Shown: piece after piece, positions 5,131 through 9,625 of the stretch | Layout: the number at the start of each line of letters is the position of its first letter | Numbering within the stretch: position 1 is the first letter of the stretch | DNA from: Neptunicoccus sediminis | GTDB taxonomy: Bacteria; Pseudomonadota; Alphaproteobacteria; Rhodobacterales; Rhodobacteraceae | Direction: 5' to 3' | Length of the DNA stretch: 64,000 nucleotides | NCBI RefSeq assembly: GCF_001719615.1 | Contig: NZ_MDVX01000003.1 | Coordinates: 248,001 to 312,000, forward strand | The notes under the pieces: generated by a model | The model's database searches: none | The model's input: only the letters and a program-made list of their open reading frames with translations | What the model was told of the DNA's origin: nothing | Position numbers and translations under genes: made by a program

Positions 5131-6609
5131 TTACCGCATCACAAAGGGGTTCGCCATTGGCGCATCAGAGGTGTTGATCCACGTGGTTTTGGTGCGGGTG
5201 TAATCGTGGATCGCATCCATGCCCGCTTCACGTCCATAGCCTGAATGATTGGTGCCACCGAAGGGCGCAATGGGGGACACGGCGCGGTAGGTGTTGATCC
5301 AGCAAATCCCCGCTTTCAACCTGTCCGACACCCTGTGCGCGCGAGCCAGACTGCGGGTGAACACCCCTGAACCCAGTCCGTAGGGGGTGCTGTTGGCCAG
5401 CGCAATCGCTTCCTCCTCGGTATCAAAGGGCAGCAGCGACATGACTGGGCCGAAAAGTTCGGTGTTCAGCGTAGCGATGCTGTGATCCGCACATTCCACC
5501 AGCGTCGGTGCCATATAATTGCCCGCACGCTCCAGCGGCGCACCGCCAAAGTGGATTCTTGCCCCCTGTTCCCGCGCCTTGGCGAGCGTTGAGACGATCC
5601 GCGCAATCTGCGTTGGGGTGCACAGCGGCCCCACATGGGTGGCAGACTCCAGCGGATCACCGACTATTATGCCTGCGCTGGCTTTTGCGATCCGTTCAAT
5701 CAAATCAGCCAGCACCGAACGTTGTATCAACCCCCGCGATCCGGCGACACAGCTTTGCCCCGAGGCGCCGAAGTTCCCTGCGATCAACCCGTTTGCCGCA
5801 CTGTCGAGATCCGCATCCTCAAACACAAGGATCGGGGATTTACCGCCCAGTTCCAGCGAAGTGACGGCGAAATTCTCGGCAGAGTTGCGCACCACATGGC
5901 GCGCGGTATCAGGGCCGCCGGTAAAGGCGATCCGGTCCACGTCCGGATGGCGGGTCAGCGGAATGGCGCAATTCTCTGCATCTCCGGTAATCACGGATAC
6001 GACACCGGGCGGAAAACCGGCCTGATCCACCAGTCTGGCAAACTCCAGCATGGGGGCGGGCGCAATTTCGGATGCTTTCAGCACCACCGAACAGCCCGCC
6101 GCCAATGCAGGGCCAAGTTTTGTTGCGGTCAGGAACATCTGCGCATTCCACGGCACAACGGCTACCACTACACCGATAGGTTCGCGACGGGTAAAGACGT
6201 GCATATCGGGCTTGTCGATAGGCAGAACCGCGCCCTCGATCTTATCCGCCAGCCCCGCGTAATAGCGGTAATAATCCCCGACATAGCCGGTCTGGCTGGC
6301 GGTTTCGGCCAGCAGCTTGCCACTGTCGGTGGTCTCGATCCGCCCCAGTTTTTCTGCGTTCTGTTCGATCAGATCCGCCAGCCGGTGCAGCAGTTTGCCC
6401 CTTTGCGTCTGGGTCATGTCGCGCCAAGCCGGATCGTCCAGAACGCGGCGGGCTGCCTTGATCGCGCGGTCCACATCCTGCGGTGCGGCGCAGGCGAAAC
6501 TGGCCCAGTCCTCTCCGGTGGCGGGGTTAGCAGAGCGCAGAACCTGCCCGTCATGCCCTTCGCAAAAGGTGCCATTAATATAAAGCTGGAAGTGGGGGAG
6601 ATCAGTCAT
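5131..6609 (-). CDS. NAD(P)-dependent aldehyde dehydrogenase
   Basis: Oxidises an aldehyde to the carboxylic acid in the cytosol. The 492-residue protein shows the whole ALDH fold. The oxyanion Asn is at 155 in PWNAQ, the cofactor Lys at 178 in LKASE, the general base Glu253 in LELGGKSP and the nucleophile Cys287 in GQSCVAGSR. The C-terminal FGPV and NTY motifs are also present. It is the last gene of a five-gene minus-strand operon and starts 8 bases after the flavin monooxygenase gene. That position suggests it removes the aldehyde released by the monooxygenase or hydrolase. The substrate is not known. The motifs fit the broad betaine/phenolic aldehyde class but do not decide within it. Confidence 0.92.
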   Translation of the reverse strand: MTDLPHFQLYINGTFCEGHDGQVLRSANPATGEDWASFACAAPQDVDRAIKAARRVLDDPAWRDMTQTQRGKLLHRLADLIEQNAEKLGRIETTDSGKLLAETASQTGYVGDYYRYYAGLADKIEGAVLPIDKPDMHVFTRREPIGVVVAVVPWNAQMFLTATKLGPALAAGCSVVLKASEIAPAPMLEFARLVDQAGFPPGVVSVITGDAENCAIPLTRHPDVDRIAFTGGPDTARHVVRNSAENFAVTSLELGGKSPILVFEDADLDSAANGLIAGNFGASGQSCVAGSRGLIQRSVLADLIERIAKASAGIIVGDPLESATHVGPLCTPTQIARIVSTLAKAREQGARIHFGGAPLERAGNYMAPTLVECADHSIATLNTELFGPVMSLLPFDTEEEAIALANSTPYGLGSGVFTRSLARAHRVSDRLKAGICWINTYRAVSPIAPFGGTNHSGYGREAGMDAIHDYTRTKTTWINTSDAPMANPFVMR

Positions 6610-6617
6610 TTCAATCC

Positions 6618-7652
6618 TTAAGCAAAAGCGGGCATTACATCGTCAATAAACCGTGCAAGCGAGTCCCGCTTGCGGCTGTAATCCATGCCGCTGTCCACCC
6701 AGAAGGCGTATTCGTCATAGCCCAGATCCTCATAGCGTTTGATCCGGTCGATCACTTCCTGTGCGGTGCCGATGGTCAGATCGCGGCGCATGTTTTCGGG
6801 GCACATCATCGTGTTTGCGGCCATTTCATCCTCTGACAGGGTTTCGATCAACCCCTGATGCACGGGCCGCTGGTTTTTGAACCATGCACCGAAATAATTG
6901 TAAAACCGCGACAGCTCTTTTGCGGCACGCGCGGTGTCGGCGTCATCGGCGGCGACATAGGTGTGGTGCAGCAGCATGATTTTGGGGCGGGGACCGTCAT
7001 AGGCGGTGCACGCCTCGTTGAACTTTTCCATCAGGCTTTGAATTTCGCCAATCCCCTGCCAGAGCGGTGTAACCTGAATGTTAAAGCCGTTTTCCACGCC
7101 GAAACTGTGGCTGTTAATATCCCGCGCCGCGATCCAGATCGGCGGACCGTTTTCCTGCAGCGGTTTGGGGGCAGAGGTGGTTGACGGGAACTGGTAAAAC
7201 TCCCCCTCATGGATGCAATCCCCGTCCCAGAGCGGGCGCAGCAAGGGGGCGGTTTCGCGCATTCTCTGTCCGGCCTCCCACGCGTCCAGCCCCGGGCGAA
7301 GCCTTTCGTATTCATAGGAATAAGCCCCGCGCGCAATGCCGATTTCGATGCGTCCGTCAGTGATCAGATCGGCGGCGGCAGCTTCGCCGGCCAGTTTGAT
7401 CGGATGCCAGAAGGGGGCCACAACGGTGCCTGTGCCAAGACGCAGGTTCCTGGTGTGATGGCTGAGGTCCACAAGGGTCAGGAACGGGTTGGGCGCGATG
7501 GTGAAATCCATGCCGTGATGTTCCCCCGTCCAGATCGCCCGCATGCCGCCGTCATCCGCCATTTTCGCCAGCGCGATCAGTTCGTCCCGCAGGCTGGCGT
7601 GGCTCTGGTCCGGTGTGATCCGTTCCATGTGGGCAAACAGTGAAAATTCCAT
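6618..7652 (-). CDS. LLM-class flavin-dependent monooxygenase (luciferase-like)
   Basis: A 344-residue TIM-barrel oxidoreductase of the bacterial luciferase family, which uses reduced flavin and O2. Typical features are the EFSLFAHMER opening, IWTGEHHG (the EHH region near the flavin), LRLGTGTVVAPFWHP, RIEIGIARGAY and GTAQEVIDRI near the C-terminus. It has no own flavin-reducing domain. The flavin reductase gene sits immediately upstream (25-base gap), so the two most likely form a two-component monooxygenase. Neighbouring hydrolase and aldehyde dehydrogenase genes point to degradation of a small organic compound. The substrate is unknown, and I do not see the marks of NtaA, SsuD or RutA that would allow a closer name. 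Confidence 0.85.
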   Translation of the reverse strand: MEFSLFAHMERITPDQSHASLRDELIALAKMADDGGMRAIWTGEHHGMDFTIAPNPFLTLVDLSHHTRNLRLGTGTVVAPFWHPIKLAGEAAAADLITDGRIEIGIARGAYSYEYERLRPGLDAWEAGQRMRETAPLLRPLWDGDCIHEGEFYQFPSTTSAPKPLQENGPPIWIAARDINSHSFGVENGFNIQVTPLWQGIGEIQSLMEKFNEACTAYDGPRPKIMLLHHTYVAADDADTARAAKELSRFYNYFGAWFKNQRPVHQGLIETLSEDEMAANTMMCPENMRRDLTIGTAQEVIDRIKRYEDLGYDEYAFWVDSGMDYSRKRDSLARFIDDVMPAFA

Positions 7653-7676
7653 CGGATGTATCCTCTGCGGGGTGAT

Positions 7677-8171
7677 CTATTGCGCGGCGATTTGTGGTGC
7701 GAAGTTGAGATAGCGGCCCCCGCCATAGCCAAGGCCAAGCGTGTCGCTCTGGGTGAAAGCCAGCACCTGACCGATCAGAATGCTGTGGTCGCCCATTGGG
7801 ATTGATTGGTGGGTCTGACAGGAAAACTGTGCGGCGGCATTGTCGATCAGGGGCAGACCGCGGGCGTCGATCCGGTGATTTACCTGCGCAAAGCGGTCGC
7901 CTTTGTAGCGGGCAAAAATATCCGCGATGTCATCCTGTCCCTGTGCCAGCACATTCACCGCAAAATGGGAGCATTCCGAAAAGGCGGTATAGTTTGACAG
8001 AAATTTGCCCGGACAGACCAGCAGCAGCGGCGGGTCGAGCGATACGGATGAAAAGGAATTGGCGGTAAAACCGATGGGCGTTCCGTCCGCCCGTCGCGCT
8101 GTCACCACTGTGACGCCGGTCGGATAGCTGCCAAACGCCACGCGCAGTTCTTTGGGATCAATGGGGGGCAT
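7677..8171 (-). CDS. Flavin reductase-like protein (HpaC/RutF type)
   Basis: A 164-residue FMN-binding split-barrel protein predicted to supply FMNH2 or FADH2 to the adjacent luciferase-like monooxygenase. It opens with the family pattern LRVAFGSYPTGVTVVTA, followed by GFTANSFSSVSLDPPLLLVC (flavin phosphate binding) and FAVNVL. GDHSILIGQV lies near the C-terminus. The length is typical of the short single-domain reductases. Its start codon overlaps the stop of the upstream hydrolase gene by one base (TGATG), so translation is probably coupled. A role as a partner of the monooxygenase is inferred from adjacency. Confidence 0.88.
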   Translation of the reverse strand: MPPIDPKELRVAFGSYPTGVTVVTARRADGTPIGFTANSFSSVSLDPPLLLVCPGKFLSNYTAFSECSHFAVNVLAQGQDDIADIFARYKGDRFAQVNHRIDARGLPLIDNAAAQFSCQTHQSIPMGDHSILIGQVLAFTQSDTLGLGYGGGRYLNFAPQIAAQ

Positions 8172-8947
8172 CAGCAGGTCTCCTTCAAAAATCCGGTCAA
8201 AATCCGGTTTACATCGGCACTGTGAGTCATCGGGGCCATATGGGCCGCGTCGGTCAGGATTTCGGCCCGTCCTTGCGGTGCAAGTGCGGCCATCTGTTCG
8301 GACATGGCGGGGGTCGAATTCGGCTCTCGCCCGCCGGTGAGGAACAATGCGGGGCAGTGCAGGGCCTGTAGATCGCTTTCCTGTGGTCCGTCTTCTTGCG
8401 CAAAGACGCGGTAGGCATCGCGATAACCGCGCGGATCAGCTTTGCGCAGCCAGCTTTCACAGGCTTTGCGTTCCTTTGAAATTTCAGAACCAAACCAACG
8501 GTCAAGCGGTATCGCTGGGTCCGCAGTGCTGACACCGTTCAGACTGTCCGCGCGGGCTACGACCGCAGCGCGGGCGTCCGGGCTACGGCGGTAAATCCCA
8601 CTGAGCGCAGCCACACCGGTGATTTTCCAACGATGCCGGATTGCCAGATCAAGCGCAATCATTGCGCCAAAGGAATGGCCGATCACCGTGGCCGGTTCGT
8701 CGATAATTTCCGCGATCCGCCCCGTGTAAGAGGCAAGCGTGGGCTGTTCCGTAAAACGCAGGCTTTCTCCGTGTCCGGGCATATCCACCGCCAACACGCG
8801 GTAATTCTGCGCCAGCGCGTCGATCTGTGCGCCCCAAGCTTCTGCCCGCAAGCCAACCCCGTGGATCAGAACCACAAGCGGCCCTTTTCCTGCGGTGATT
8901 GCTGCCAGAGCGCCGGTTTCAGACCGCGGCCGGATTGTCCAGATCAT
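8171..8947 (-). CDS. Alpha/beta-fold hydrolase
   Basis: A 258-residue cytosolic hydrolase with the classic triad layout. The oxyanion-hole segment HGVG is at residues 29-32 and DMPGHGES at 55-62. The nucleophile Ser92 lies in GHSFG, an acid residue is expected near the TGGREPN turn, and His is in DAAHMAP near 236. There is no signal peptide. The gene overlaps the end of the DUF1185 gene by 29 bases and couples to the flavin reductase gene. Within this operon it could open a lactone or ester made by the flavin monooxygenase in a Baeyer-Villiger-like reaction. That chemistry is inference only. Confidence 0.85.
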   Translation of the reverse strand: MIWTIRPRSETGALAAITAGKGPLVVLIHGVGLRAEAWGAQIDALAQNYRVLAVDMPGHGESLRFTEQPTLASYTGRIAEIIDEPATVIGHSFGAMIALDLAIRHRWKITGVAALSGIYRRSPDARAAVVARADSLNGVSTADPAIPLDRWFGSEISKERKACESWLRKADPRGYRDAYRVFAQEDGPQESDLQALHCPALFLTGGREPNSTPAMSEQMAALAPQGRAEILTDAAHMAPMTHSADVNRILTGFLKETC

Positions 8948-9518
8948 GTCCCAAATCCTTCAGATCCTGATAGCGATCACCGATCCGGTGATGTGGCCGT
9001 CCGTTCATCGCAGCGCCCAGCACCACAACGATTTCATCGTCGCGCGGGGCATCGGGAATGGCGAACTGGATGGTCAGATAATGGGACCGGCGGCCCGCGT
9101 CGTTCTTGTCCATCAGCGGCACGGCAATGGGCGCATTGGCCCCGCCACGGGTGTTGGTGAAAGCCAGATAGGATTTCGCGCCTACGGCTTCGCGGTAGTG
9201 GTTGCCAAAGCGCAGGGTGTGGATCAGGCCGGAGGCATGTTCGATCTCGCCGTTCAGACCGACAACTGCCGCTTTGCCATAGGCTTCGATACTCTCTCCG
9301 GACCCTGCCAGCGCGATCATCCGCTCTGTCATCAATTCGCCCAGAACAGGGCCATAGGCCATAATCTCGGGCTTGAGATTTTCGACATAGCGTCCCGCCC
9401 AAGGGTTTTTCACAACAGCCGCCACAGCAAACATGCGCCATGGCGTCTTGGCGGGTTTGAAGCCTTCGATCAGGATTTCTTCGTCAAAGGTGACGATCTT
9501 TCGGATTTCCGGTTGCAT
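8919..9518 (-). CDS. DUF1185 (amino acid synthesis family) protein
   Basis: First gene of the catabolic operon, 199 residues. The sequence matches the family annotated as 'amino acid synthesis family protein' (Pfam DUF1185). Known family structures have a chorismate-mutase-like variant fold, but the function is not established. Conserved-looking pieces include AVAAVVKNPWAGRY, GKAAVVGLNGEIEHASGLIHT, FTNTRGGANAPIAVP and VVLGAAMNGRPHHRIG. The ATG at 9518 is preceded by GAAGGA at seven bases, so I prefer it to a GTG at 9533 that would place this site inside the gene. It overlaps the downstream hydrolase gene by 29 bases and faces the LysR gene across a short divergent promoter region. Confidence 0.85.
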   Translation of the reverse strand: MQPEIRKIVTFDEEILIEGFKPAKTPWRMFAVAAVVKNPWAGRYVENLKPEIMAYGPVLGELMTERMIALAGSGESIEAYGKAAVVGLNGEIEHASGLIHTLRFGNHYREAVGAKSYLAFTNTRGGANAPIAVPLMDKNDAGRRSHYLTIQFAIPDAPRDDEIVVVLGAAMNGRPHHRIGDRYQDLKDLGHDLDNPAAV

Positions 9519-9591
9519 GGTGTATTCCTTCACAGCGTTGCACAGATCATTGTCCGCACAGGAAAATTTGACAAACGAAGGATTTGCAGGC

Positions 9592-9611
9592 TTAGGTATA
9601 AGTCTTACTAA
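9592..9611. promoter_or_regulatory. Candidate LysR-type operator dyad
   Basis: An imperfect dyad, TTAG-N12-CTAA, with an inner CTTA-N4-TAAG palindrome, lies between the divergent LysR gene and the DUF1185 operon. T-N11-A dyads are the usual LysR targets, and such regulators are often divergent from the genes they control. The dyad overlaps an upstream ATG at 9611, which argues for the later LysR start at 9626. Confidence 0.4.
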
Positions 9612-9625
9612 TGGATGGATTGATC

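Follow-up and report, generated by a model that had tools for sequence, protein, structure and literature searches.

Which compound is consumed by a compact operon of Neptunicoccus sediminis that joins a DUF1185 protein, a hydrolase, a flavin reductase, a luciferase-like monooxygenase (LLM), and an aldehyde dehydrogenase (ALDH)? The operon, found in a 64,000-nucleotide stretch of DNA (the window), looks uncharacterized because none of the six ORFs of the locus reaches an NCBIfam equivalog cut-off. The sequence-only reading had indeed called it uncharacterized and had held that its substrate could not be named. Neither statement was supported: orthologous clusters with a known substrate exist in Acinetobacter (tgn) and on pSymA of Sinorhizobium meliloti, the very finding that the earlier reading had set as a refutation of its own label, and the substrate could be narrowed to an N-methylpyridinium carboxylate, with trigonelline the likeliest and homarine its rival. 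The remainder of that reading, namely the enzyme set, the LysR regulator, the chemistry, and the N-heterocycles listed among candidate substrates, agrees with the present analysis. Trigonelline (N-methylnicotinate) is a small N-methylated pyridine of plants and algae. Plants and phytoplankton use both trigonelline and homarine as nitrogen-rich osmolytes, and the marine bacteria that consume them matter for ocean carbon and nitrogen cycling.

Organization and Conservation of the Operon

The five genes are packed on the minus strand between 5131 and 9518, as described earlier. In the ORF list the DUF1185 and hydrolase genes overlap by 29 bases and the hydrolase and reductase genes by 1 base; the reductase and LLM genes lie 24 bases apart, and the LLM and ALDH genes 8 bases apart. 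The features of the locus are as follows.

5131–6609, minus strand: ALDH in the TgnC position, 492 aa; Pfam Aldedh
6618–7652, minus strand: luciferase-like FMN monooxygenase (LLM), TgnB counterpart, 344 aa; Pfam Bac_luciferase
7677–8171, minus strand: flavin reductase, shortened TgnA counterpart, 164 aa; Pfam Flavin_Reduct
8171–8947, minus strand: alpha/beta-hydrolase, TgnD counterpart, 258 aa; Pfam Abhydrolase_6
8919–9518, minus strand: DUF1185 (PF06684) protein, TgnF counterpart, 199 aa; Pfam AA_synth, 246.7 bits
9567–9575: conserved TTTGTCAAA, containing the -35-like TTGTCA of a promoter-like site
9598–9612: LysR-box-like palindrome ATTAG-N5-CTAAT (ATTAGTAAGACTTAT in the window), overlapping the LysR start codon
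9611–10468, plus strand: divergent LysR-type regulator, GcvA-like and specific to group A; Pfam HTH_1 and LysR_substrate

An alternative start of the DUF1185 gene is an open GTG at 9533, 15 bases upstream. All assigned domains were confirmed with Pfam, and the earlier assignment of a two-component flavin monooxygenase accompanied by a hydrolase and an ALDH was supported.

LLMs of this kind were divided into group A (the type found in the window), group B (the type of Acinetobacter sp. PK01, S. meliloti, and Leisingera), and group C (distant and rearranged). The neighborhood search that had been proposed for the five-gene set recovered the identical block, in the same order, in ∼110 group-A loci and 15 related group-B loci; the group-A total counts some genomes twice, because two of the collections have genomes in common. 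The overlapping DUF1185/hydrolase junction is kept in most group-A loci. The operon is real and conserved: the number of loci, the shared overlap, and the conservation of the intergenic region in 90 loci place the block far beyond chance. No conserved transporter adjoins the group-A operon in the ∼30 neighborhoods examined.

The divergent LysR gene, also noticed earlier, is present at 9611 on the plus strand and recurs, almost without exception, in group-A loci on contigs long enough to show it, giving the group-A layout LysR | DUF1185 - hydrolase - (reductase) - LLM - ALDH. It scores 195.8 bits against the PRK11139 GcvA subfamily, below the cut-off of 288. Group-B clusters carry a GntR regulator instead. 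In an alignment of the LysR/DUF1185 intergenic region from 90 group-A loci, both the palindrome and the 9567–9575 element are conserved, and the palindrome is a putative conserved operator of the group-A LysR protein. The only sigma-70-like site between 4900 and 10700 lies upstream of DUF1185 (9574–9546, minus strand); one match against 2.5 in shuffled sequences makes it weak on its own.

Relationship to Known Trigonelline Clusters

A tgn cluster for trigonelline catabolism was reportedly described in A. baylyi ADP1 by Perchat et al. in 2018. Plasmids were searched for an Acinetobacter copy with the S. meliloti monooxygenase back-translated into AT-rich codons, and the best match was plasmid NZ_CP094644.1 of Acinetobacter sp. 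PK01. Its order is GntR | DUF1185 - hydrolase - tgnA - tgnB - tgnC, with a succinate-semialdehyde dehydrogenase (SSADH) gene downstream. The annotation names a flavin-dependent trigonelline monooxygenase together with a (Z)-2-((N-methylformamido)methylene)-5-hydroxybutyrolactone dehydrogenase. The names of tgnA-C on this plasmid are similarity-based database annotation, which counts against the trigonelline reading. The window proteins are 63% (LLM), 57% (ALDH), 68% (DUF1185), 39% (hydrolase), and 51% (reductase, over the shared part) identical to those of PK01. Indeed, the order tgnF-tgnD-tgnA-tgnB-tgnC within one operon is found in the window, and the Acinetobacter cluster shares with it the five enzymes in equal order, the DUF1185/hydrolase overlap, and a divergent regulator. 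It differs in having a GntR rather than a LysR regulator, a full-length reductase (310 aa rather than 164 aa), a TgnC of another ALDH lineage, and the nearby genes for an SSADH and a cytosine-permease-family protein, with mgd-like sarcosine-oxidase genes upstream. The latter are four genes in the mgdABCD layout (L069:244-5401) directly upstream of tgn, and their position suggests a coupling to methylamine use.

On pSymA of S. meliloti, the same five-gene block lies between noeB and the nif genes, with DUF1185, hydrolase, reductase, LLM (65% identical to that of the window), and ALDH genes in one operon. In contrast to the window, a NIPSNAP gene, an ABC transporter, and an SSADH-like ALDH follow the block, and the TgnC is classical. 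The trc genes, with which S. meliloti catabolizes trigonelline, map to this symbiotic plasmid. Wild-type S. meliloti grows on trigonelline and does not when pSymA is absent (PMC4207669). On pMESCI01 of Mesorhizobium ciceri, a tgn-type hydrolase and flavin reductase are fused into one 600-aa protein (L070:6205-8004).

The agreement of gene set and order with the PK01 and pSymA clusters argues for the trigonelline reading. The operon very probably encodes a tgn-type ring opening of an N-methylpyridinium carboxylate.

The Monooxygenase and Its Partner Enzymes

In the window's own family, an LLM was detected at E ≤ 1e-40 in 53 of 199 genomes. Identity to the window LLM is ∼70%–78% in group A, 62%–69% in group B, and 35%–40% in group C. 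The group-A LLMs form one clade (SH-aLRT 100) nested within the A + B (TgnB) family, where they adjoin group-B sequences from roseobacters (support 93), and group C falls outside. At 63% identity to the annotated TgnB, the window LLM thus lies inside the TgnB clade. Of its 344 positions, just two (F190 and N280) are fixed differently between A (n = 29) and B (n = 14), and 34 are common to A and B and not to C. This nesting and the near identity at fixed positions favor trigonelline. The nearest solved LLM structures (7bip, 1brl, and 6ket) are too distant to serve as a guide to the substrate.

A survey of 397 genomes found A in 29, B in 37, and both in none (P = 0.05 for zero overlap by chance), and this lack of co-occurrence was counted in favor of trigonelline. 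The hosts of group A are almost all marine (Tateyamaria, Yoonia, Ruegeria, Roseibium, Sulfitobacter, and Granulosicoccaceae). Group A is a new, mainly marine branch of a known kind of pathway. The operon becomes a testable marker in ∼7% of the sampled genera of the family, and group A lends itself to a natural test of whether such enzymes distinguish the isomers trigonelline and homarine.

The partner enzymes diverge to different degrees, with fixed A/B differences numbering 2 in the LLM, 2 in the reductase, 9 in DUF1185, 6 in the hydrolase, and 41 in the ALDH. The ALDH has the TgnC position and 57% identity to the annotated TgnC, yet in the ALDH tree it lies outside the TgnC clade; its catalytic residues C287, E253, and N155 are invariant. 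The hydrolase can be assigned to the TgnD type, with 39% identity to the PK01 and 42% to the S. meliloti counterpart. All 106 group-A and 15 group-B sequences compared keep its nucleophile S92 (GHSFG) and H236, and four of the six fixed differences fall within residues 234–242, around the catalytic H236.

The reductase is of the TgnA type over the shared domain (51%) and lacks the C-terminal half (164 versus 310 aa). Among group-A loci it is ∼305 aa long in 71 and absent in 30; seven more, among them the window, encode a version of 161–169 aa. In the window lineage the C-terminal half has been lost cleanly, leaving 24 bases (7653–7676) before the next gene; the same is seen in L093, L095, L096, and L048.

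DUF1185 corresponds to TgnF, with 68% identity to the PK01 protein and conservation of the cavity residues E91, E93, H94, R174, and R178, the residues named for BB2672 (PMC2954203). In A. baylyi, TgnF is a DUF1185 homolog that stimulates the oxidation of succinate semialdehyde (PMC7913881). The predicted fold matches 3byq and 2qtp, and a Foldseek search of the model against the PDB (E ≤ 0.001) returned these two DUF1185 structures only and no RidA/RutC-like match; a RidA/RutC-like fold was rejected for this protein. DUF1185 is absent genome-wide in two group-A genomes (G161 and G072). Elsewhere in the genome of the window, unlinked to the operon, are two tandem DUF1185 paralogs (G000:C64:243545-244665), one of them ∼90% identical to the crystallized SPO0826 (2qtp) of R. 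pomeroyi.

Proposed Pathway

The gene set, its order, the homologies, the catalytic residues, and the conserved operator were observed directly; the supply of FMNH2, the ring opening, the oxidation and hydrolysis, and the SSADH step are proposed by analogy with characterized relatives and the tgn pathway. The LysR protein would switch the operon on. FMNH2 would come from the flavin reductase or, in relatives without the gene, from another reductase of the cell. The TgnB-like LLM would then add oxygen and cleave the C5-C6 bond to give an N-methylformamido aldehyde/hydroxybutyrolactone, which the ALDH would oxidize to a dicarboxylate. Deformylation by the alpha/beta-hydrolase would release methylamine, formate, CO2, and succinate semialdehyde. 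DUF1185, as the TgnF counterpart, would speed the late steps, perhaps by hydrolyzing an enamine, which is a guess. An SSADH encoded elsewhere would deliver the product to the TCA cycle; the genome of the window holds two 56% SSADH homologs outside the operon (G000:C64 and C31). The earlier reading had suggested Baeyer-Villiger or C-X bond cleavage with subsequent hydrolysis and aldehyde oxidation; in the form of a cleavage of the ring or of a C-C bond, after which the aldehyde is oxidized and hydrolysis follows, this chemistry was supported.

Trigonelline, Homarine, or Another Substrate

Trigonelline is somewhat favored as the physiological substrate. The best argument for it is a chimeric locus in genome G154, where a single contig carries classical tgn-type genes for GntR, DUF1185, hydrolase, and ALDH, then an ABC transporter, and then a LysR gene with a group-A reductase and LLM. 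The classical genes (ALDH 79% and DUF1185 88% identical to Leisingera) lie ∼4–9 kb from the group-A reductase and LLM, and G154 has no further LLM at E ≤ 1e-40, no second ALDH above 39%, and no group-A ALDH. The simplest reading of this one genome is that the product of the group-A LLM would be accepted by TgnC and TgnD. Homarine (N-methylpicolinate), the marine isomer, would be attacked by the same chemistry, with C5-C6 cleavage, oxidation, and deformylation leading to N-methyl iminoglutarate and thence to 2-oxoglutarate and methylamine, or to N-methylglutamate. It is a serious rival, though as the physiological substrate it appears rather unlikely. Group-A hosts are almost exclusively marine, the ALDH lineage has been replaced (outside the TgnC clade, with its 41 fixed differences), the hydrolase has fixed changes around H236, and the linked SSADH (TgnE), which homarine would not need, is absent; each of these points also counts against trigonelline. 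The absence of a linked SSADH does not exclude trigonelline because 12 of the 15 group-B loci also lack it: a nearby gene was found in 3 of these 15 and in none of ∼109 group-A operons, counts that carry no correction for relatedness. Our finding no assayed group-A enzyme in the literature was likewise counted against trigonelline. Against homarine, the LLM is nearly unchanged from TgnB at fixed positions, and G154 pairs it with a classical TgnC, TgnD, and TgnF. A substrate shifted to homarine, or widened to both isomers, with the ALDH replaced, the hydrolase retuned, the LLM nearly unchanged, and the reductase shortened or lost, is a tentative description of group A and a doubtful one.

Tgn-type cleavage of homarine would, on chemical reasoning, leave an N-methylglutamate skeleton. 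A homarine operon, homABCDER, was reportedly described by Ferrer-Gonzalez et al. in 2026, with five genes and a regulator, equal in number to those of the window; its pathway shares with the window an N-methylpyridine carboxylate substrate and marine bacterial hosts. The group-A operon may be this published operon, in which case it is already known. As far as the citing article describes it, that conserved pathway of 2026 includes N-methylglutamate dehydrogenase (Mgd) (cited in PMC13390433). The genome of the window has only a 46% Mgd paralog and lacks GmaS and MgdC, which would leave the published N-methylglutamate route incomplete in this organism and argues against homarine. MgdC, a component of methylamine assimilation, occurs in 17 of 29 A genomes, 29 of 36 B genomes, and 2 of 14 background genomes, and its enrichment in A and B was counted for trigonelline. 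As a substrate test, methylamine assimilation was set aside, GmaS and MgdC being patchy in both groups and giving no separation of trigonelline from homarine. Homarine is a marine osmolyte, and Heal et al. argued on steric grounds that TgnAB is ill suited to it (PMC8269262); the homarine concentrations first published were subsequently revised to lower values (PMC10134881).

Two further explanations were weighed. The same enzyme class could act on a different N-methylpyridinium, pyridine, or lactam-like compound, such as N-methylnicotinamide or a nicotinate derivative. This is improbable: group C does redeploy the five-domain set with a CoA-transferase, BKACE, and a TPP enzyme, but the window LLM groups with TgnB and not with group C. 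A Rut-like degradation of pyrimidines (with RutA as LLM, RutF as reductase, RutD as hydrolase, and DUF1185 as a RutC-like protein), or an unrelated substrate, is very improbable. Rut likewise combines an LLM, a flavin reductase, and an alpha/beta-hydrolase in small-molecule chemistry, and the reductase and hydrolase do match RutF and RutD weakly (76 bits where the cut-off is 254.75, and 53 where it is 238.5). The Rut reading was rejected on these family scores. RutA is absent among the families listed, however, the gene set and order match tgn, and the DUF1185 model gave no RidA/RutC-like hit.

Clusters of the Distant C Type

Genome G453, which we take to be that of R. pomeroyi, lacks both A and B and carries a C-type cluster alone, and was therefore rejected as a physiological anchor. 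R. pomeroyi grows on trigonelline (PMC8269262). Its use of trigonelline without A or B means that another route exists, a point counted against trigonelline as the substrate of group A. The C-type cluster of this genome (L181:6725-13548) and those of L037, L025, and L073 contain a distant LLM (38% identical to that of the window) and an ALDH, together with RidA, a hydrolase, a CoA-transferase/flavin-reductase fusion, and a crotonobetainyl-CoA-hydratase-like protein. Some of these loci add carnitine-dehydrogenase-like, BKACE, and GbdR-like genes, and the cluster of L037 is adjoined by a glutamine-synthetase-like gene that coincides with a gmaS match. A second C-type cluster (L026:4204-11429, L035:3849-10984, and L036:3876-10410) combines LLM, ALDH, DUF1185, and hydrolase genes with a 562-aa thiamine-diphosphate enzyme (Xsc/acetolactate-synthase-like) and a LysR gene.
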